From IMG/VR virus record IMGVR_UViG_3300046000_007573, positions 1-21,315 of that record: a stretch of DNA of 21,315 nucleotides; one strand, given 5' to 3'. The position numbers and the translations under genes were made by a program. The stretch comes from a virus. The notes beneath the pieces were generated by a model. It searched no databases. It saw nothing but the letters and a program-made list of their open reading frames with translations, and was not told the DNA's origin. Shown here piece by piece: positions 1-17,381 of the stretch; the stretch's first letter is position 1; each line of letters opens with the position of its first letter.

Positions 1-3000
1 GGAACCGCCCTCGTTGTATCTGCTAATCACATTGTTGATTATCTCAGCAGATACCAGATCGGAGTAAGCCTGTGCGCGTTCGTTTCTATTGGCGACAGTT
101 CCGACCAACGCTTTAAATCTGTTATCGACGCTGAACGTACCGCTATGTGATAGCGACATCTTGGTGAAGTCGAGCAGTTCTTGAATCGCATCAGCGGCAA
201 CTTCGTGCTTCTTAGGATCAAGACCAAAGACGTTAAGGATGGCGTCAACGAGACGGCGCAAGATCGAGCGTTGGTCGAGCGGTGCAAGACCAGCAAGAAT
301 GTTCTGGAACTCCGGCGCAGTGAGTGCGTAGGTCAGGAACTCAGCATTGCTGGACAAGCCGAGCCTTACGACCGGATCTGTATCCAATCCAAGTTTGACT
401 GCATTAGCGAGGGCGAAGTTACGGATCGCTTCAATACGTGCCACTGCCTTCCGTTGGGATTCAGTCTTAGGGTTAAGTAGAACTTTGGCTGTCGGTGCGT
501 GGAGGTATTCGTGCAGTAGCACGTCCACTAAACCACGACCGTTGTGTTCGTTTAGGTTGACTAGAACCGAGTTGCTTGTCCGGTCGTATAGACCAGCAAA
601 GCCTAAGTCCAACTCGACCATTGCGAAGTTAATGTTCCGAATGAAGTCCGGCGCAGTAAGTAGTAGTTCGGCAACCAGTTGCTGTTTTGGCGTGCCAGTC
701 TCCGTGATCCTACGGAGGGCTCCGAGAACAGAGTTGGGGTCACCGGATACCAGACCGAGCTGGCTAACAACGCGCAGGTTCTCTGCCTTTGCTTCGTCGC
801 GGAGGGACGGGTCGATCTGTGACAACGAGAAGTTGTAGTCCGGATCGGAGACACTACGCGGCTTGCCGAGTATCTTGATCTTACCGCCGACCTCTCTGGT
901 TGGGAGGTTTCCACTCTCTAGTGCTTCGGTGCCTGCTATCTGTGCAGCTGCTTCGGAGAACGATTTCGCTGTGGACTGCTTGCGCTCAGTGGCTGATAGA
1001 TTCTCCTCGCTAAACGTTGCGATTGGTGTGCTGCTTGGACGCCCAACTGAACGAACATTTGGATCTGTAACCTGACCCTCAGAAGGTTCGAATCGGGTCT
1101 TTCTAACGACATCAACCGGATCAATATACTTGGTAAGGAGACTGGACTTCGGTATGTTGACGCCGTTTTTAATCAGCGCTTTATCTAGGTTTTCTTTTCG
1201 TCTCCGCACTTCCCCATCAAACTTGTTACGGAGATCCACGCTTGCCTCGATCTCATCGAGCTTACGCCTCACGGCCTCAGATGTATCTCTTCTGTTGCGT
1301 TGAATAGTGGGGGAGCCAGCAATGATCTCAACGTATTGCTTCCACTCCGGAAGTTTGAGGACACGCTCAATCCGCCGACTCTCCTCTTCAACACGTTTTC
1401 TAGCGGACTCAGAGAGCCCAGACAAGAACTCTCGGTTGTCCTTTATTTGAGCGTAAGCTGCTTCGATATCGTTGATTAGTTTGTTGACTAGAATAGGTCC
1501 ACTTAGTTCTCTTGCGGCCTTAGCCTTCTCAAGTTGTTTCTGTTTGGTGGTAATCGAAGCATCCAAATCAGCGAGGGTCTCGTCGCCTTTGTAATAGACG
1601 TCCGCATACGTTTTCTGTAGTCCCGCCAGTTCTTCTTTAAGCGCGGTTCTTTCCTTATTAGACTTCGCCTGTTTTAGTAGAGCGGGTATCTTCTCAATAG
1701 CTTTGCTCGACTCGTCTCGCAAAACGAGACCCTCAGTGATCTCCAGAATTCTTGATCGAACATCGCTAATTCCGTTTATGAGATCCTCAGTTCCTCTGCG
1801 TGTATCCTGTAGCTTCTGGATTTCCGCTTCGATGTCACTAACGTTTTTGTCTTGGAACGCAGCAACGCTCTCGACCGTAACTCCGACGCGACCAGCTTCA
1901 AGACCTTCAGCGATCTGCCTTTTAGTTTTGAGTCTGACTGGACCCATATCTTCGGCGTCCGTCTTCCCAATAAGCGTCCTTAGCAAACGGAACGAATCAA
2001 AAATATCTGCGCGAGCTTCTTCGATTGTGTTGAGTGCGATCCTTCGCTCACTGCCGAGCTTTAACAAATATGGCAGAGCTGCCTGAGCTGCCTCCAAATA
2101 GTTATTGGTGTAATCAATAGTATCTTGATCTGTCGCTTCCGCTTGACGCACGGCTTTACCCGCTGCAACAGCTTCACCCGACCAAGTGGACAACGCTTCC
2201 TTATATGCTTCTGTCTCTTCGTCACCTTTGTTCGGTGGAGGTGGCATCGCCGCCGCAGGTGTTGCAGATTTACGTTCAGCTGGTGCTCGCAGTGGCAGCG
2301 ACATTGTAGGTGGTAGCCAACCGAGGGCGATCAGCAGACCAGCGGCCTGCTTACCTAAATCCGACCCCGACAACTCGAATAATACAGTGCGAGCGTATCC
2401 TTTATTGGTATGGAGAATGTAATCGGTGTTAAGTTTACCAGCTAGTGATTGGACGAGCACAGCATCAGACAAGTTGTCTGCCTGATATGGTGGTATTATT
2501 TCGGTCTGTACCGCAAGATTCCTGAAGACTTGGGCTAGTTTACCAGTTTTGTCCTCTGCGATGGTACGGTATAGCTCGCTCGCCAACAAAGCCGAACGGT
2601 TCATAAAGACAAGGTCAGACGATTCCAGTGCGCTGGCATACGACTCGCCTGTGAGTAGTATATCATATACTCCCGCATCTGCCCCACTCTCTTGCCTCCG
2701 CCTATCCATCTCATCTTGCAGCGCTTGAACTGTATCTGCGCCAGCCGCTCCGATTATCTCCTCTAAGAAGAACCCCTCTCCATCTCGCTTAACGTAATCT
2801 AATGATGTGAGTCCGGTGTTGGGGTCGGCTCGTTCGGCTTTGGCATTCCTGTTCGCTACTGTGTTAAAGGTCGAGGCTCCTACAACTGTCAAATTAGCCG
2901 GACGATTCAAATACGTATTCGGATCTGGTAGTGAGTAGAATCTACCGCCAGCAACAGTAGCGTTGGCAAAAAGGTATCTAGCGTATTGGATGATAACCGA

Positions 3001-6000
3001 AGTGGGGTCTCCGCCCTTGATGTTCTTGTATATCTTTTTGATGTTGGCAGCTATTGAATTAACATCACCGTCTATCATCTCGGTTACGAACTTAACAAGA
3101 TCTGTCTCCTTGAGTTTATCCAGAATAACTCCGTCCCTGACTTCTTGTGGGAGATCAGAAAACTCTATCGTGTTTCCGTCTTCGTCAATGTACCTAGATG
3201 TTAACTCCTGCCCGTCCCCGATCTTAATCTTATCCTGATATTCCAGAGACTGAAAGACTTTCCGTACTACGTTTTGAGCCAAACGATATTCATTTAACTC
3301 GGCATTAAACCCTCGGCTAAGATCCTCTATCGTGTTGTCGATGTAAGTATCTGACCAAGGGAATCTTGAATCTCTATTTCTTTTCGACGCGAGGAGGTTG
3401 CGGGTAGTTTTATAGAGCTTTAATAATGAGGTAGCGAAGTAAGATCCCATATCCCCCTTGATCTCAGACGTGCTCACCATGTTGTTCACAAACAACTCAA
3501 TGCGTGGGCTCTCAAAGTTCGATCTCTCGTTGAATACCTGCTCGCCATTCTCATCAATTCTCGGGTTTGTTACGCGACCAAAACTACCTATGGTAACTGG
3601 TTCTGGGTTGCGAGGCACATAGTATCCTTCGATAATACGCCCGTCCCGTGTATACTGTGACGGGTTCAACAGATCTCTATCGAACGTATCAGGTATGATT
3701 ACACGATAACCAGCCGCGATCTGCGCTTTTGTGATCTTAGGGTTGTTTGTGAACACACCAAACAGACCATCTTTATCCACCGGAAAGTAGATACTTTTGT
3801 CTGTTTTACTATTGACGACTTCGTATTTCTTTCCGTCGATTTCGTAATATCTTTCGTCCTTTATTTTGACCTTGACGTCTTTCAACTGTTGCGCTAACGC
3901 TTCGCGTTTAGCAATAAAGCCAGAGGGTACTTTTCTACCGAGCAGCGCATCTCTCTCCATAGCGCTATCCATCCGATTGATCTCTACCTCAATAGAGTCG
4001 AGCATAGCGGTATCCTCACCAATGGTTCCTTTGGTTCTGGACCTACCGGTAATGGTAACCAGCTCACCGAATTGTGGGTACTTAGACAGCACTTTCTCGC
4101 TAAGGAGTTCGTGCTTGTCCTTGATGTAAGCGTTGGTGTTGGCTACCTCTTGGCCTTCTTGCTCGACTACCTCAACTTGAGCTTGTGAGAACGCTGGGAA
4201 TTTATTCACACCAGACTCAGTAATAAACTGACCAGCTTGGGCTAAGGTCTTTCCGGTTTCCGGCAAGTTGACAATGAACCCGCCTTCGACTAGCTCATTA
4301 AACATATCTTCCTCTTGCGTGCCATTTCGGAACTGTTCTTTAGCGTAAGCTACTCTAGTAACCTTAATGTCGGGCGTTGGATTAAAGGCTTTGACTCTAG
4401 CTCTAGGAGCTACTTCTTCTCTAAAACCACCTACACCAAAAAGTGAGCGGCGAAGTTGAGTGAGCATCTCTTGCTTTCGTTCATTCTCTAGGTCTCTATA
4501 GAAATCAAAATCAGACTGTAGGACAGAACCAACACTGTTGATGTATTTGGTAGCCTTAGCCCTCATATCCTTCATCTGCCCTTTGATGCGCGATACAGCG
4601 GCAGACCTCTTAGCAGCAGGTAGCTTATCAGTTTCTCCAAGACGGGCGTCTAGTTCCTTACTCTTAACAACATAGTTGTTAACAGCAACAAGGAAATCCC
4701 TCACACGGTCTTGTACTGGCTTTGCCGTTCTACGTTTAATCGCTGCCATTTCTTTTTTGGCTTGCTGCGTAATATCAAAAACCTCTGTGCTCGCCGCATC
4801 AATGGCTGTGCGTAAAGCAGGAGCCTCGAAGTTGACGGTGGAGAGCGGAGCCCGCATTGCTACGCCGAGCTTCTCATAAAGGATCTCTCTGGTCTCTTGA
4901 TCGTAACCTGTAACCGCTACGGTTTCCACGCTGTCTCGACGCTCCTCATCGACCTTAACACCCATCTTCTTTAGGTAAGCCTGAAAGTTTTTATTAGTGT
5001 ATGTCTTTACATCAATCGTGGTAAACGCTTCAGGTGTATTGGAAAGTAGGTAGTGTAGCGTGTTCGTGTCGCTGGCCTTTGTTACGGCCTCTTCTTCAGG
5101 TTCCGGTTCCGCTTGTAGCGCTGTCAGCTCCGACACCGCTATACCGAACACCTCTTCATACTCACGCTCGACGACATAGTCCTGTATGATATTTATCCGA
5201 GCAACCAAAGCCCTGTAGTCATCAATGATTAGTTGGCGTTGCTTAGGTGTCGCCTTGTTATTGGTGTCTTCGGCAAAACTGATAATGTCCTCCGCCATTG
5301 ACTCGACGGTATCCAGTTCTTCAATCGAGACGTCGGAGAGACCGATAGATGTGCCGAGTTTGTTGCGTAGTGGTACTATACGTACAATGTTCTCGATACG
5401 ATCCACATCAACAGGCGCGTCCGAATCCACATAGCTCTGCCTAATCCCATTGATAGACTCAGCGAAATCGCGGTCTAGCTGCTTCTGTGATTCGTCCCAA
5501 CTACGGTACACGCGTGGGCCTTGTGATGCAGGGGTTAGCGGTTCTTGCGTTGCTGCGGATTCGAGCTCGATCGCATCCTCACTGAATCCTTTTTTGTTTT
5601 TTCTGAGTGCGGCAATTTCTTTTTTGATTGTTTTCTCAAGATCAACGCTTTGTTGTTTGATGAGCTTCTGCTGCTCCTTGATGGACTTCTGTTCTTCCGT
5701 TAACTGTTTATCACTAATATCCAGATAATTGAGAGACGCAAGGGTATCGGTAACCTTCTTAAGATTCTTCTGCTTACTAGAGATTTGAGCGTCGAATCCC
5801 TCAAGTATTCTTCTAGTCCTGTTCTGTTTATCGGTAACAAGCTCTAGCTCACCTTCTGTAGCGGGAGCGAATGAGCGACCGAGGATGTCCTCCGTCTCTG
5901 CTTGCAACTCTTCATCGGTCATCTCCGGTTCACTTGGAGCGACGAATCCAAACTCTTCTTTTGACTTGACGAGATCCTTGCGGTTAGCGAACCCAAACTC

Positions 6001-9000
6001 AAATTGACCTTCTGCGGTTTCCGATATTGGCGATTTGGGTGTGATGTCGATACCGTACCACTCTGCTATAGCCTTGATCTGTAGAGAGTTAGTAAGGGGG
6101 ATATTCATAGTAGAAGACCCGTCCTTAAGTGAAAGTCCACCTTTAACAATAAGACTACGTACGTTCCCTTCGTCATCGCGGAAGACTTCAAATGACTCAG
6201 GGGTTGTTTTTTCTTTTACTGGAAAAGCAAATTTAGTTTTCTTCTTGCCCCCCATTGATACGTAAGGAGTGCCAGCAGGAACACCAAAAGTCTCCTGCCC
6301 GATGGTAAGGATAGGTGCAGTAAATTTTGAAGCTCGCTGAAAGCGTGGCCCCAAGTTAATGAACTCAACTGATCCACCACCCTCTGTGAGATACGGTTTA
6401 CTAAGTCGAAGGTTGACGGAGCTGCCGTCCGGATCTAGCTCCAGAACACCGCTGAAACCACTGTATTCAATTTCCTCCCCAAGGATGTCATCCAGCAGGG
6501 GCTCGAACGGCTCGTCTGCGGGTGCCCACTGACCCGTCTCTTCGTTAAAGACAGGTCTCCCCTTAAGGGGTCTTTCGTTGGGGTTAGCAACCACAGTGCG
6601 TCCTTTGATATCTTCCTGAGTTTTCTGCGCGGCGATATCTCTTTCGACAGAGAGTCGCGCTTGTTCACGCGCCTCGTCGATACGGCGCTGCAATACATCG
6701 GCGGTAGAATTGCTGTTGTTCTTACGAAGCCGATTTGCAATATCCTCAAATGCGGATGCTCTGCCTTCAAATACCAGACTCTGTTCTGATTTACGGACTC
6801 TGCCGAACTGGGTGCTGCCAGCGATACCTGCACCCAAAGCACCGCCGAGAAGTCCGGCGTCAAACACTTGTGCTACTTTCTCAGCAAGCGAAGCATCCCG
6901 ATCGAGAGCCGAGTTCTCAATAGCCATGCCGACGGCTTGGTCTAGTGATTCTTCAAACGCCTCGCTAAGTCCACCTTTTAGTGTGGTCTTCAACCAGTTT
7001 TTGTATGTGCTGGTAATAGCTGAGCGTGCAGCGATATTGAACGCCTTGTCACTAAGGACGCGGCCTTCGTTAGCTGCATTCTGGTATGCCTGTTTGGCTT
7101 GTCGGTAATTCATCTTACTGACTGGAACAGCACGCTCGGCAGCTTCTTGGACGGAACGTGCTGTCAGTGTGTCACCGCCACGAATCTTACGAACCACGTT
7201 TGTGCCGATGTCTTCAACAGCGCCAAGTCCCAATCCCGACAGACCCACTGTGATAACAGACGTGGATACGCCCATTGCAAGAGCAGCAGGAAGAGCATTC
7301 TTATACTTCTCCTCGTGGCTCATGTCGTCCGGCATCTGATTGTAGAGAGAACCAAATGCGGAGCCAGCTGATCTGGTAAACGTAACGGCGGCAAGTGGAG
7401 CTAACTCTCCGAACTTTTTAGCAAAACTCTCACCGACATCTGTGATAGCCTTGCCGAGAAACTGTGAGCCCTCAGCAGACGCTGCTTTGCGGAACGAAGC
7501 CGCTGCCACATCATCAATCTCAGAGAGTGCCATCTTAGCACCACCACGAATCATAGCACGCGCCGACATCGCACTTGTTTTCGCAAGTGCTTTGGCTCCG
7601 GCAAACGCGCCACCTGTTCCAATAGTCAGACCGATGTCGGCAGCTACCTGTGGGAGTGTGTTCAACAGCTGGAAACCGAAGCCGTATTCGTCTCCGTAGA
7701 GGCGGGAGAATTCCTGACGTCTGGTCTGATCTTTCATCATGTCGCCCATCGTCGTAGCAGCCCACTCATTACCAGCGAGAGCGGCGATGCCCAAAGGGAT
7801 CTCAGCTAAAGTCTTCCATGCGCTTTTTCCAAACTGTTCTAAGCGGATACCAAACGCATCGTAATCTTTACCACTACCTACATATTGCTCAATGAACTCG
7901 GAAGGGGAGAGCCCGTCGGCTTTTGCTTTTGCGTAACTACTAACCGCTTCAGGTTCCTCTTCAAGGATCATCTTAATAAGATCTGGAGCAGCGGATTGCA
8001 GTAACAATTTACGTTGGACGGAGGCTTGTTTCTGCTGGTCTTCATTTAGCGAAGAGCTACTGACAGCCTGATTGAACTTCTCCACATTAGCTAGGAGGCT
8101 TGGGGCGAGAATAACATTGCCCATCGAGTCGGTAGTGATTCCGGTCTCAGGACGGTCGGCTCTGTAAGGAGCTCCAGCAACTCTGTCCGTAAGCGCATCA
8201 CTAAACTTTTCGATCTCAGCAGCGCTAAAGCGTTGGCTGAATACGTTATTACCAGCAAGCGCGTCAGCCAGCGTTGTGTCGGGCGCATACTTCGGTTGTT
8301 TCTGTTCGCCGTCAAATAGGTCAATAAGGAGCTCGCCACCTTTAATGAAGGGGTAACTGATAGCCGTCTTCGCGCCTTCTAGGATGGATTCTCCGGTGGT
8401 GCGGAGTTCGGCAGTTTTCTGCTCTATTCTATTGGAGGCATTTTTTTCGATTAACTTGTTTAAGTCCTTATCCGTTTTTGCGAGATCACTAACCGTACGT
8501 TGGAACATCTCATATCGGGAGTCCTCAGCGCCGTTGGTCAGACCACCGTTCAATGGTTTGACGAAATCATTGACCCGATACAAGTCAGCGGACGACAAAG
8601 CACCAGTTGCGATAAGTGACTTGACCTCACCTGCGATAGCGTCAGGTCGTGCGTTTGCACCAGCATAGAGGCTGCGTGATCCGTCTTCTTCATCGAGCGC
8701 TGTGATGCTATACTCCCCGCGATCGACAGCGGACATACGTGCACGTTTTATCAGTGACTTGTCGGCAAGGGTCTCATCGACATACGGCTTGAAACCCTCC
8801 GCTTCGGATGGAGCTCTCTCTCGTAAGGTAATGTAGTTCGCAAGATTGCTGGCTTTAGCTTCATTCGCTACAACGTTTTCTGGTCCTTCGCTATTTGTGC
8901 GGAGGTAGTCCAATACAAAACGGGCGTCGGTGTCTTCGTTACGCGTCGTGCCAACAACACTAGAATACAAATTATTTTTGACATCATCAGGCATGTCATC

Positions 9001-9192
9001 GGTAAGCAATCCGTCACTCTGAAGACGATCAGCGACTCCGGCGACGATCTCCTGTTCAGTATCTTGGTTTAGTTGTCCTGCGCTGTAGTAGCTAGACCTA
9101 ACATAATCCGTGTAGTTTTTAAGGTTTGTTATTGGTTCAGCAACCTCTTCTTGGTTTGCGATCCAGTCGTCGTATGGTTTAATTTCCAGCAT
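1..9192 (-). CDS. Giant phage protein with zincin-like metallopeptidase motif (3' end beyond window)
   Basis: One frame is open from ATG at 9192 to base 1, at least 3064 codons; its stop lies outside the window. I read it through by eye without meeting a stop. Residues about 505-555, 633-658 and 776-794 are Gly/Ala-rich and hydrophobic. Residues about 1111-1211 and 2441-2678 look like long coiled coils, and a short Pro run lies near residue 2315. Near the known end, HEYLH (H2894, E2895, H2898) is followed 53 residues after the second His by NAEF (E2951). That is the usual zinc-ligand layout of gluzincins and recurs in giant phage proteins of the large polyvalent protein type. I infer a virion-borne or ejected protein, with the hydrophobic parts perhaps contacting the host membrane. 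It is the last minus-strand gene in view, 29 bp after its neighbour, with no Shine-Dalgarno sequence. Central parts match nothing I recognise; an N4-like virion RNA polymerase was considered but its motifs were not found. Confidence 0.85.
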   Translation of the reverse strand, partial: MLEIKPYDDWIANQEEVAEPITNLKNYTDYVRSSYYSAGQLNQDTEQEIVAGVADRLQSDGLLTDDMPDDVKNNLYSSVVGTTRNEDTDARFVLDYLRTNSEGPENVVANEAKASNLANYITLRERAPSEAEGFKPYVDETLADKSLIKRARMSAVDRGEYSITALDEEDGSRSLYAGANARPDAIAGEVKSLIATGALSSADLYRVNDFVKPLNGGLTNGAEDSRYEMFQRTVSDLAKTDKDLNKLIEKNASNRIEQKTAELRTTGESILEGAKTAISYPFIKGGELLIDLFDGEQKQPKYAPDTTLADALAGNNVFSQRFSAAEIEKFSDALTDRVAGAPYRADRPETGITTDSMGNVILAPSLLANVEKFNQAVSSSSLNEDQQKQASVQRKLLLQSAAPDLIKMILEEEPEAVSSYAKAKADGLSPSEFIEQYVGSGKDYDAFGIRLEQFGKSAWKTLAEIPLGIAALAGNEWAATTMGDMMKDQTRRQEFSRLYGDEYGFGFQLLNTLPQVAADIGLTIGTGGAFAGAKALAKTSAMSARAMIRGGAKMALSEIDDVAAASFRKAASAEGSQFLGKAITDVGESFAKKFGELAPLAAVTFTRSAGSAFGSLYNQMPDDMSHEEKYKNALPAALAMGVSTSVITVGLSGLGLGAVEDIGTNVVRKIRGGDTLTARSVQEAAERAVPVSKMNYRQAKQAYQNAANEGRVLSDKAFNIAARSAITSTYKNWLKTTLKGGLSEAFEESLDQAVGMAIENSALDRDASLAEKVAQVFDAGLLGGALGAGIAGSTQFGRVRKSEQSLVFEGRASAFEDIANRLRKNNSNSTADVLQRRIDEAREQARLSVERDIAAQKTQEDIKGRTVVANPNERPLKGRPVFNEETGQWAPADEPFEPLLDDILGEEIEYSGFSGVLELDPDGSSVNLRLSKPYLTEGGGSVEFINLGPRFQRASKFTAPILTIGQETFGVPAGTPYVSMGGKKKTKFAFPVKEKTTPESFEVFRDDEGNVRSLIVKGGLSLKDGSSTMNIPLTNSLQIKAIAEWYGIDITPKSPISETAEGQFEFGFANRKDLVKSKEEFGFVAPSEPEMTDEELQAETEDILGRSFAPATEGELELVTDKQNRTRRILEGFDAQISSKQKNLKKVTDTLASLNYLDISDKQLTEEQKSIKEQQKLIKQQSVDLEKTIKKEIAALRKNKKGFSEDAIELESAATQEPLTPASQGPRVYRSWDESQKQLDRDFAESINGIRQSYVDSDAPVDVDRIENIVRIVPLRNKLGTSIGLSDVSIEELDTVESMAEDIISFAEDTNNKATPKQRQLIIDDYRALVARINIIQDYVVEREYEEVFGIAVSELTALQAEPEPEEEAVTKASDTNTLHYLLSNTPEAFTTIDVKTYTNKNFQAYLKKMGVKVDEERRDSVETVAVTGYDQETREILYEKLGVAMRAPLSTVNFEAPALRTAIDAASTEVFDITQQAKKEMAAIKRRTAKPVQDRVRDFLVAVNNYVVKSKELDARLGETDKLPAAKRSAAVSRIKGQMKDMRAKATKYINSVGSVLQSDFDFYRDLENERKQEMLTQLRRSLFGVGGFREEVAPRARVKAFNPTPDIKVTRVAYAKEQFRNGTQEEDMFNELVEGGFIVNLPETGKTLAQAGQFITESGVNKFPAFSQAQVEVVEQEGQEVANTNAYIKDKHELLSEKVLSKYPQFGELVTITGRSRTKGTIGEDTAMLDSIEVEINRMDSAMERDALLGRKVPSGFIAKREALAQQLKDVKVKIKDERYYEIDGKKYEVVNSKTDKSIYFPVDKDGLFGVFTNNPKITKAQIAAGYRVIIPDTFDRDLLNPSQYTRDGRIIEGYYVPRNPEPVTIGSFGRVTNPRIDENGEQVFNERSNFESPRIELFVNNMVSTSEIKGDMGSYFATSLLKLYKTTRNLLASKRNRDSRFPWSDTYIDNTIEDLSRGFNAELNEYRLAQNVVRKVFQSLEYQDKIKIGDGQELTSRYIDEDGNTIEFSDLPQEVRDGVILDKLKETDLVKFVTEMIDGDVNSIAANIKKIYKNIKGGDPTSVIIQYARYLFANATVAGGRFYSLPDPNTYLNRPANLTVVGASTFNTVANRNAKAERADPNTGLTSLDYVKRDGEGFFLEEIIGAAGADTVQALQDEMDRRRQESGADAGVYDILLTGESYASALESSDLVFMNRSALLASELYRTIAEDKTGKLAQVFRNLAVQTEIIPPYQADNLSDAVLVQSLAGKLNTDYILHTNKGYARTVLFELSGSDLGKQAAGLLIALGWLPPTMSLPLRAPAERKSATPAAAMPPPPNKGDEETEAYKEALSTWSGEAVAAGKAVRQAEATDQDTIDYTNNYLEAAQAALPYLLKLGSERRIALNTIEEARADIFDSFRLLRTLIGKTDAEDMGPVRLKTKRQIAEGLEAGRVGVTVESVAAFQDKNVSDIEAEIQKLQDTRRGTEDLINGISDVRSRILEITEGLVLRDESSKAIEKIPALLKQAKSNKERTALKEELAGLQKTYADVYYKGDETLADLDASITTKQKQLEKAKAARELSGPILVNKLINDIEAAYAQIKDNREFLSGLSESARKRVEEESRRIERVLKLPEWKQYVEIIAGSPTIQRNRRDTSEAVRRKLDEIEASVDLRNKFDGEVRRRKENLDKALIKNGVNIPKSSLLTKYIDPVDVVRKTRFEPSEGQVTDPNVRSVGRPSSTPIATFSEENLSATERKQSTAKSFSEAAAQIAGTEALESGNLPTREVGGKIKILGKPRSVSDPDYNFSLSQIDPSLRDEAKAENLRVVSQLGLVSGDPNSVLGALRRITETGTPKQQLVAELLLTAPDFIRNINFAMVELDLGFAGLYDRTSNSVLVNLNEHNGRGLVDVLLHEYLHAPTAKVLLNPKTESQRKAVARIEAIRNFALANAVKLGLDTDPVVRLGLSSNAEFLTYALTAPEFQNILAGLAPLDQRSILRRLVDAILNVFGLDPKKHEVAADAIQELLDFTKMSLSHSGTFSVDNRFKALVGTVANRNERAQAYSDLVSAEIINNVISRYNEGGS

Positions 9193-15937: not shown

Positions 15938-16164
15938 AGAAACCACAAGAATCCCTGAAGAAGTGGACAGAACAAAAATGGCGAACCTCCGACGGCTCTC
16001 CGAGCGAAGGCAAAAAACGCTACCTACCAGACAAAGCGTGGGGTGCTCTCTCCCAAAGTGAGAAGAACGCTACCAATCAGGCTAAGGCAAAAGGCAACGC
16101 CAAAGGTAAGCAGTTTGTTCCACAACCAAAAAGCATCGCTAAGAAAACCTCCGGTTACCGATGA
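15934..16164 (+). CDS. Small basic protein, DUF5872-like
   Basis: The 76-residue sequence follows the pattern SLKKWT.QKWRTSDG.PSEGKKRYLPDKAW..LS..EK.ATN.AKAKG...GKQFV.QPK.IAKK, which I recall as the DUF5872-like family seen in phages, algal viruses and some bacteria. It is highly basic with no enzyme motif; a nucleic acid-associated or structural role is possible. Its ATG overlaps the preceding stop (ATGA). GGGAGG lies 12 bp upstream of the start, at poor spacing. Its stop overlaps the start of the split diphosphohydrolase-type gene, again as ATGA, so three genes are chained. Confidence 0.8.
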   Translation: MKKPQESLKKWTEQKWRTSDGSPSEGKKRYLPDKAWGALSQSEKNATNQAKAKGNAKGKQFVPQPKSIAKKTSGYR

Positions 16165-17291
16165 ACACACCAAACGATCCGAAAGGTGCAATCGGTGCTA
16201 CAAAGACACCACTAGCATTGATTCCGCCGTTTGCTATGGAGCAGACTGCGTGGGTTCACAAGTTAGGCTCCGAGAAATATGGCAAAAAGATTCCAGTTTA
16301 TGCTTGCAATGATGGCGTTGAACTGGCAGAATTCTGTTCGTGCGGATACTCCATACAAAACCAACGTGCCACCCAGACAGGCCACATGCCTCTCGCGGAC
16401 TATGTTTCGAGTGCTACAATAAAGAACACCCAAGAAGCAAGCGGGCCTCATGTCATGAAGGAAGAGTTGCATGGGCAAAAGGATTATGTAAATCCTGCTA
16501 CGACAAACAGCTTAGGCTTTCAGATCCAAGTTACGATAGCAGACAAAAAAGTATTACTAACGACTGGGTCTCAAAAAATAAAGAATATCTTAGAATCCAA
16601 CATTCTGAATACAATAGCAGACCAGAAATTAAGGAAAGAAATACTGTCAACAATAGGATTAGAACTCTTCAATCATTTGGGTTATCGTTGGAAGATGAAC
16701 TCAGAATTTTGGGTGAGCAAAATTACGGATGCAAAGTTTGCGGTGGACCAGCAGGAAGAAAAGGATTATTTGACATCGACCACGATCACAAGTCTGGAAG
16801 ATTTAGAGGATTTATATGTCACAGGTGCAATAAAGGGCTTGGCCTGCTCGGAGACAATATCGAGTCTGTTGAAAAAGCACTCGCATACCTGCGATGTTCA
16901 GAATCTAATTATTCGTGATGGTGAAGTAGAGCAGTATGGGGCCTATAATTGGAGGCGCACAGGCGTATGTGCGACCACGTATGTCGCTGCCATCATGCGC
17001 CACCTCAACGCTTGGCGCGACGGCGAAGACTTGGACCCTGAATCCGGTATCTCGCACATCGCTCATATAGCCTGTAGCTGCAACATCCTACTAGATGCAC
17101 AGCACTGTGACACGTTACAGGATGACCGATACAAGAAGCCTACAAACCCACATTGCGGATCGGAATTTATAGCTGAAGAATTTGGTGCCCAAACAGGTCG
17201 CCCGTCAGAGAATGAGATGGAATGTTTATGTGGGCGTAGGCTCATCTACACATGGAACATGGGCTGGGCATGTGAAGACTGCCACCTTTAA
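16161..17291 (+). CDS. dATP/dGTP diphosphohydrolase-type protein interrupted by a 219-codon in-frame insertion
   Basis: Residues 14-41 (KTPLALIPPFAMEQTAWVHKLG, then SEKYG) and 261-312 (AYNWRR, RHLNAWRDGEDLDPESG, SHIAHIACSCNILLD) are two halves of one domain. I recognise it as the N-terminal domain of phage dATP/dGTP diphosphohydrolases (DUF5664-like, MazG-related), linked to nucleotide-pool control. Between them, residues 42-260 correspond to DNA carrying an endonuclease gene in another frame. This stretch has no stop in the host frame and is exactly 657 bp, so the frame stays open for 376 residues. Without the insert the protein would be 157 residues. A C-terminal CxC...CxxC (ECLCG, WACEDC) may bind zinc. 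The stop codon is inside a 10-bp hairpin. It could be a functional fusion, a split gene needing splicing or bypass, or a broken gene. Confidence 0.65.
   Translation: MNTPNDPKGAIGATKTPLALIPPFAMEQTAWVHKLGSEKYGKKIPVYACNDGVELAEFCSCGYSIQNQRATQTGHMPLADYVSSATIKNTQEASGPHVMKEELHGQKDYVNPATTNSLGFQIQVTIADKKVLLTTGSQKIKNILESNILNTIADQKLRKEILSTIGLELFNHLGYRWKMNSEFWVSKITDAKFAVDQQEEKDYLTSTTITSLEDLEDLYVTGAIKGLACSETISSLLKKHSHTCDVQNLIIRDGEVEQYGAYNWRRTGVCATTYVAAIMRHLNAWRDGEDLDPESGISHIAHIACSCNILLDAQHCDTLQDDRYKKPTNPHCGSEFIAEEFGAQTGRPSENEMECLCGRRLIYTWNMGWACEDCHL
16272..16283 (+). repeat. Left copy of the 12-bp imperfect repeat bounding the insertion
   Basis: GAGAAATATGGC here and GAGCAGTATGGG at 16929-16940 match at 9 of 12 positions and encode EKYG and EQYG in the same frame. 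In the uninterrupted domain only one such unit precedes AYNWR, so the pair marks the insertion boundaries. Confidence 0.6.
16293..16336 (+). promoter_or_regulatory. Structured leader of the endonuclease gene: hairpin plus perfect palindrome
   Basis: CCAGTTTA (16293-16300) pairs with TGAACTGG (16319-16326) as an 8-bp stem (one G-U) with an 18-nt loop. It is followed directly by the perfect 10-bp palindrome CAGAATTCTG (16327-16336), which ends 3 bp before GTG 16340. Stacked structure right before a start codon can limit translation, as known for several phage homing endonucleases. Confidence 0.5.
16340..16918 (+). CDS. HNH endonuclease of the endonuclease VII family, likely homing-type, GTG start
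   Basis: The 192-residue protein has two N-terminal zinc-finger-like units, C10-x11-C22-x2-C25 and C38-x11-C50-x2-C53, an exact 28-residue repeat with GLCxxCY. The catalytic domain follows: CKVCGG (C131, C134), DIDHDH (D147-H150), then CHRC and N (C160, C163, N164). That is the two-CxxC zinc frame and His/Asn active site of endonuclease VII-type HNH enzymes. All known key residues are present. The frame opens after TGA 16319 and has no ATG, so GTG 16340 is the likely start. It lies wholly inside the split diphosphohydrolase-type gene, in a different frame. It may promote its own spread by cutting uninterrupted copies of that gene; resolving branched DNA, as T4 gp49 does, is an alternative. 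Arg codons are AGA/AGG-biased. Confidence 0.88.
   Translation: MRILHTKPTCHPDRPHASRGLCFECYNKEHPRSKRASCHEGRVAWAKGLCKSCYDKQLRLSDPSYDSRQKSITNDWVSKNKEYLRIQHSEYNSRPEIKERNTVNNRIRTLQSFGLSLEDELRILGEQNYGCKVCGGPAGRKGLFDIDHDHKSGRFRGFICHRCNKGLGLLGDNIESVEKALAYLRCSESNYS
16929..16940 (+). repeat. Right copy of the 12-bp imperfect repeat bounding the insertion
   Basis: GAGCAGTATGGG matches the left copy at 16272-16283 at 9 of 12 positions and restores the YG residues before AYNWR at the resumption of the conserved domain. Confidence 0.6.
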
Positions 17292-17311: not shown

Positions 17312-17381
17312 GTTCGTAGGTTACCATTACCGATCAGGAACTTTTAATTCAAAAAACACAACACAAACAAAAATATTACCG
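17312..17381 (+). promoter_or_regulatory. Upstream region of the 210-residue gene with an ATTACCGAT repeat
   Basis: ATTACCGAT occurs at 17326-17334 and again at 17375-17383, the second overlapping the ATG at 17382. TTACCGATGA also surrounds the start at 16161. The spacer is A-rich (AAAAAACACAACACAAACA). I see no -35/-10 pair and no Shine-Dalgarno sequence. Confidence 0.35.

Follow-up and report, generated by a model that had tools for sequence, protein, structure and literature searches.

How can one stretch of viral DNA hold a nucleotide-metabolism gene and, inside it, a complete endonuclease gene in another frame, while the frame of the interrupted gene stays open from end to end? The question is raised by a locus at positions 16161-17291 of the window, the whole stretch of 21,315 nucleotides that was analyzed (IMG/VR record IMGVR_UViG_3300046000_007573). 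The inserted sequence could be removed from the RNA or the protein, skipped by the ribosome, or translated together with its host, and the host frame could be open by accident or by selection. The best explanation, and a likely one, is a homing endonuclease gene hidden in a host frame that it leaves readable.

The interrupted gene and its hidden endonuclease

The open reading frame (ORF) at 16161-17291 (plus strand) starts with ATG and extends through 376 codons in one open frame, encoding a protein of 376 residues. Both of its ends match PF18909, the N-terminal domain of dATP/dGTP diphosphohydrolases, in a profile search. The 5′ part of the host gene (16161-16283, plus strand) encodes residues 1-41 and ends in EKYG, with residues 6-41 aligning to PF18909 positions 2-37. 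The 3′ part (16941-17291, plus strand) begins with AYNW and encodes the rest of the domain, matching positions 39-99 (9.2e-19), followed by a zinc-ribbon-like C-terminal tail; in uninserted homologues the two parts are joined. The domain is thus broken exactly after KYG, which on comparison of homologues is the most conserved motif of the diphosphohydrolase. The split gene described in the initial annotation, an ORF of this extent with its domain divided between KYG and AYNW by 657 bp, is therefore real.

The insertion itself (16284-16940, plus strand) spans 219 codons of the host frame and harbors no stop in that frame. It is bordered by an 11-bp near-repeat, the 5′ copy of which (GAGAAATATGG, 16272-16282, plus strand) agrees at 9 of 11 bases with the 3′ copy (GAGCAGTATGG, 16929-16939, plus strand) located 657 bp downstream. 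The exact edges are ambiguous within the TATGG repeat shared by the two copies (16278-16282 and 16935-16939), and can be shifted by at most 6 bp.

Within the insertion lies a gene for an Endonuclease VII (Endo VII)-type HNH homing endonuclease of 192 residues (16340-16918, plus strand), read from a GTG start in the third frame relative to the host gene. It matches PF02945 (Endonuclease_7; 8.7e-16, 58.1 bits against a cut-off of 23.6) and PHROG 2914 (1.7e-27). In the alignment, the catalytic residues D147-H148/N164 and the zinc cysteines C131/C134/C160/C163 are intact, forming the DH…N and CxxC/CxxC signatures of the PF02945 family, and the N-terminus carries tandem Cys-rich repeats. This ORF takes up all but 78 bp of the insert. 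The best full-length relative of the nuclease (36%) among 80 Endo VII loci, surveyed out of at least 600 pattern matches, is that of locus L097, and the GTG at 16340 falls within a few residues of the L097 ATG. No Shine-Dalgarno sequence precedes this GTG (−2.6 kcal/mol), and the same holds for the genes starting at 16161, 17382, and 19314 and for most others in the window. In this phage with few Shine-Dalgarno sites, the hexamer TTACCG stands directly 5′ of the ATG in both the host gene (16155-16160) and the next gene (17376-17381).

Distribution and mobility of the insert

The insert is absent from close homologues of the host gene. In L002-L005, L008-L010, and L012-L015, whose flanks share ~83-93% nucleotide identity, the gene is contiguous at KYG and reads KYG-PFNW or KYG-AFNW without a break; more distant homologues also lack the insert. 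A search for uninterrupted homologues had been proposed at the outset as a check, and it yielded dozens of close ones without the 657 bp. Of 965 matching phage records, the 60 listed are all single-piece matches, with no interrupted case.

Contigs from other samples also carry the insert: L001 and L081 have an identical copy, L006, L007, L082, and L083 one with two differences, and L084 and L178 a partial one. This recurrence excludes an assembly artefact. The window and L006/L007 are 99.7% identical across the insert (two differences in 657 bp), whereas both flanks are ~12% divergent. The near-identity marks a homing (co-conversion) tract at 16272-16987 (plus strand) that contains only the two differences and has sharp edges, with ~12% divergence on either side. 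A near-identical element in divergent backgrounds with sharply bounded co-conversion is a signature of homing, here with presence and absence among close relatives, a single conserved site, and co-converted flanks. Both haplotype differences change an amino acid in the endonuclease frame, and both host parts are intact in the two lineages that carry the insert.

These observations are consistent with a homing element that consists of little beyond an Endo VII-type gene seated in the KYG|AYNW motif of the diphosphohydrolase gene. The endonuclease would cut uninserted alleles, and repair would copy the insert together with its flanks. The element carries no known self-splicing RNA or intein; instead, its length is a multiple of three and the host frame would be kept free of stops. 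Ribosomes would read through to produce a host protein of 376 residues in which 219 passenger residues separate two helices; the endonuclease would be initiated independently, with GTG 16340 as the probable start. The host protein would keep enough activity, or its loss would be tolerated.

Structure prediction gives a tentative view of that protein. The AlphaFold model of the 376 residues has a mean confidence of 47, with the insert mostly below 55, and that of an intact control has a mean of 60. Both models are weak, so that placement of the site is only suggested; it would follow helix 23-40 and precede the next one. Because the most conserved motif is struck and AlphaFold confidence is low, the 376-residue protein may be inactive; in its enzyme activity, the gene may thus be recently broken, another of the options in the initial annotation.

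One uninserted allele, L011, lacks exactly 63 bp in frame across the KYG|PFNW target (~3990-4005). This single case may record a cut that was misrepaired, or the deletion may have arisen by chance. Separately, a conserved insert peptide was considered on the basis of tblastn matches in Arthrobacter phages that ran from the host part into the insert; the extension was weak with BLASTP, and these matches are thus no evidence for such a peptide.

Probable selection on the host frame

The contribution of chance to the open host frame was estimated by fixing the endonuclease protein and permuting synonymous codons, a test that covers the endonuclease part; the other 78 bp and the frame-preserving length would contribute a further factor. 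Against 4.3-4.7 expected host-frame stops, the window has none (P(0) = 0.0014-0.0047, the upper value being obtained with window codon usage). The frame is open beyond chance, a result that alone is not overwhelming. The test was calibrated on Endo VII genes of viral contigs, 74 in number and all outside the set of hidden ones. Their off-frame stops gave observed/expected ratios of 1.04 and 0.96, and none of these 74 free-standing genes had zero stops or reached P ≤ 0.01.

A P of 0.001-0.005 can arise for one element chosen by hand, the insertion is recent (two differences), and it strikes the most conserved motif. These points fit an unlikely reading in which the host frame is open by accident, the gene being a recent casualty whose enzyme is dead and whose stops have not yet accumulated. 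That reading has to contend with the intact state of both host parts in both lineages, and with the recurrence of a stop-free off-frame, seen in none of the 74 free-standing genes, in L097 and four helicase-methylase relatives.

At the diphosphohydrolase locus, the two known haplotypes are too alike to reveal selection. Among 80 loci compared at the diphosphohydrolase site, no more distant copies were found, and a search for the junction pattern EKYGKKIP returned the known copies and two unrelated genes, nothing more. With no divergent copy found at this site, selection there has to be judged from relatives.

In L097, positions 388-2949 encode the terminase large subunit (TerL), with Endo VII hidden out of frame at 1509-2096. 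The TerL ATPase and nuclease domains flank Endo VII in a single open frame, and 14 homologues show that ~200 codons are inserted in frame between CLDD and DDPL. The open frame of L097, taken alone, is not unusual (P0 0.19).

A helicase-methylase family of phages provides a further test of chance. At one site, both flanks are present in 79 loci; these were retrieved with only the 3′ host part, and broken copies would therefore have shown up as well. Inserts of 444-555 nt occupy the site in four of the 79 (L247, L227 = L110, L260, and L228); all preserve the frame, none is broken, and there are no host-frame stops. The hidden Endo VII genes lie, in locus coordinates, at ~1929-2591 in L227 (= L110), 2064-2636 in L228, 1986-2543 in L247, and 1911-2555 in L260. 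They match PF02945 at 1e-20 to 7e-25 in a common relative frame, and their pairwise identity is 34-47% in the endonuclease frame but only 19-30% when the host frame is compared. The expected numbers of host-frame stops are 4.5, 9.5, 3.5, and 9.6, with P0 of 0.003, <5e-5, 0.013, and <5e-5, respectively, values that are not independent since the four genes share ancestry. Across a nuclease divergence to ~40% identity, the host frame of these genes has nevertheless remained open.

On the evidence of these related hidden Endo VII genes, the host frame in the window is probably kept open by selection and not by luck. Removal of the insert before or during translation would leave the host frame with no reason to stay open; the probable maintenance of that frame therefore argues against RNA-level removal or bypassing. 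The overprinted in-frame insertion that the initial annotation had placed among its options has held up: the insertion is clean and mobile, its host frame is open beyond expectation, and the arrangement is apparently selected in other hidden Endo VII genes.

Putative purine-rich ribosome sites precede a plausible start of the hidden nuclease in three helicase-methylase cases (GGAGG…GTG, −10.0; AAGGAGG…GTG, −12.1; and GGAG…ATG, −6.4 kcal/mol), and L228 has GGAG…ATG at −5.6 kcal/mol. With window positions as background, 17% reach −5, and the sites at −6.4 and −5.6 are accordingly weak evidence.

Several other loci were set aside as hidden cases. L085 and L086 are free-standing Endo VII genes, a Klebsiella Endo VII gene adjoins a methylase gene and is not inside it, and the TerL of L214, which is longer upstream, has no insert between its domains by Pfam. 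L157 and L152 have open off-frames in GC-rich DNA but no recognizable split gene.

The chances are about even that homing elements made of Endo VII genes, and in need of neither intron nor intein, constitute a widespread class. Selection would keep the second frame free of stops in diphosphohydrolase, terminase, and helicase-methylase genes, the host protein would be made through the insert and the nuclease from an internal start, and in at least some hosts the enzyme would tolerate or remove a passenger of ~150-220 residues. Such elements would survive in conserved phage genes because selection keeps the second frame stop-free.

Other routes to an interrupted gene and known systems

MobE in nrdA of Aeromonas phage Aeh1 and MobA in T4 gene 60 are endonuclease insertions (PMC2988022) in which, as in the window, an HNH homing endonuclease gene splits a gene of nucleotide or DNA metabolism at a critical site. 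Those insertions leave the host gene as two coding regions; in the window, the host frame is single and continuous, and the locus is therefore not a T4-type split of the nrdA/gene 60 kind. A gene in pieces, with two host polypeptides that assemble as in the Aeh1 nrdA-mobE type, draws on these precedents in T4-like phages (PMC2988022) and on the near-repeat, which leaves the 3′ part its own EQYG before AYNW. Such an arrangement is improbable here, as the host frame offers neither a stop to terminate an N-terminal piece nor an ATG or GTG start near the 3′ part.

Hidden Endo VII genes also occur within inteins. The actinophage terminases L090 and L092-L095 harbor Endo VII out of frame within a true intein, and the group (Gordonia phages Angelicage, Affeca, and Nordenberg; Mycobacterium phages Phlyer and AlanGrant) resembles the window in Endo VII family, relative frame, and open host frame. 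Their passenger is a real intein (PF14890), and a member of the group, the Chandler TerL6-f intein, splices (PMC5050341), whereas the window has no splicing domain. The records of these actinophage terminases are annotated as terminase, or terminase plus intein, only.

Excision at the protein level by an unrecognized, non-Hint intein-like passenger would be in keeping with these TerL inteins, with the open frame, and with the position in a conserved motif. It is very improbable for the window, where no intein or Hint profile of Pfam matches the 376-residue ORF, the junction is followed by A and not by C, S, or T, a terminal HN is missing, and the protein model is of low confidence.

The conserved site and the co-conversion would also suit a very reduced self-splicing group I or II intron, as the initial annotation had allowed. 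A permissive search of 2 kb returned no Rfam intron match up to E = 10, while identical settings recovered the T4 nrdB group I intron, the positive control, at 6e-7; five related hidden inserts likewise gave no intron match. Only 78 nt lie outside the ORF, and the ends of a group I intron (exon U, final intron G) are impossible at any junction within TATGG. As an intron would also give no reason for the open frame, this origin is scarcely credible.

Translational bypassing from UAU/GGC to UAU/GGG by a mobile element of the T4 gene 60 type, another of the options first put forward, would find matching take-off and landing codons in the TATGG repeat, but it is extremely improbable: the gap of 657 nt exceeds the ~50 nt of T4 gene 60, GGC and GGG differ (UAU and UAU being identical), there is no in-frame stop after take-off, RNA near the 5′ edge of the insert is not more stable than shuffles (z +1.2), and the open frame would be unneeded.

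The preferred reading, a hidden homing endonuclease gene in a readable host frame, has a counterpart in the ShiLan domain, a hidden HNH endonuclease in the mycobacteriophage DNA methylase gp65 (Arsenault, Gosselin, Gogarten 2025, PMC11855218), whose hidden ORF was reproduced in JN020143. Both combine an in-frame insertion at a conserved site and a stop-free host frame with a complete third-frame endonuclease ORF read from GTG; both lack a Shine-Dalgarno sequence and any intron or intein signal, and both have a patchy distribution implying homing. Homology between the two nucleases is not detectable (tblastn E 0.85 over 21 aa), and homology is no part of the authors' definition. The window differs in its PF02945 Endo VII, its diphosphohydrolase host gene, and its apparently non-actinophage background. 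The GC content of its insert is 0.42 and not 0.65 as in ShiLan, which makes an open frame less expected there. As all ShiLan features are present, the nuclease is unrelated, and the host gene and phage group differ, the window is an independent variant of an arrangement known since 2025 in the open-licence literature. A helicase-methylase with a hidden endonuclease-like ORF, gp60 of phage Pacc40, is also described there (PMC11855218). Its host architecture is that of L227, L228, L247, and L260, but the insertion site differs, and the ORF is not detectably similar to the nuclease of the window.

The 2025 description is based on GC-rich actinophages and left host read-through and nuclease translation open (PMC11855218). 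Open off-frames are cheap in GC-rich DNA; the window extends the arrangement to AT-richer DNA, an unrelated nuclease, and another phage group, and its relatives supply the statistical case for selection on the host frame. Both read-through of the host and translation of the hidden nuclease are now directly testable.

The terminase of the window phage has no match in the phage collection, and this, together with base composition, suggests a phage outside the actinophages. The minus strand of window positions 1-9192 is taken up by a giant ORF of at least 3064 residues, which runs off the start of the window.
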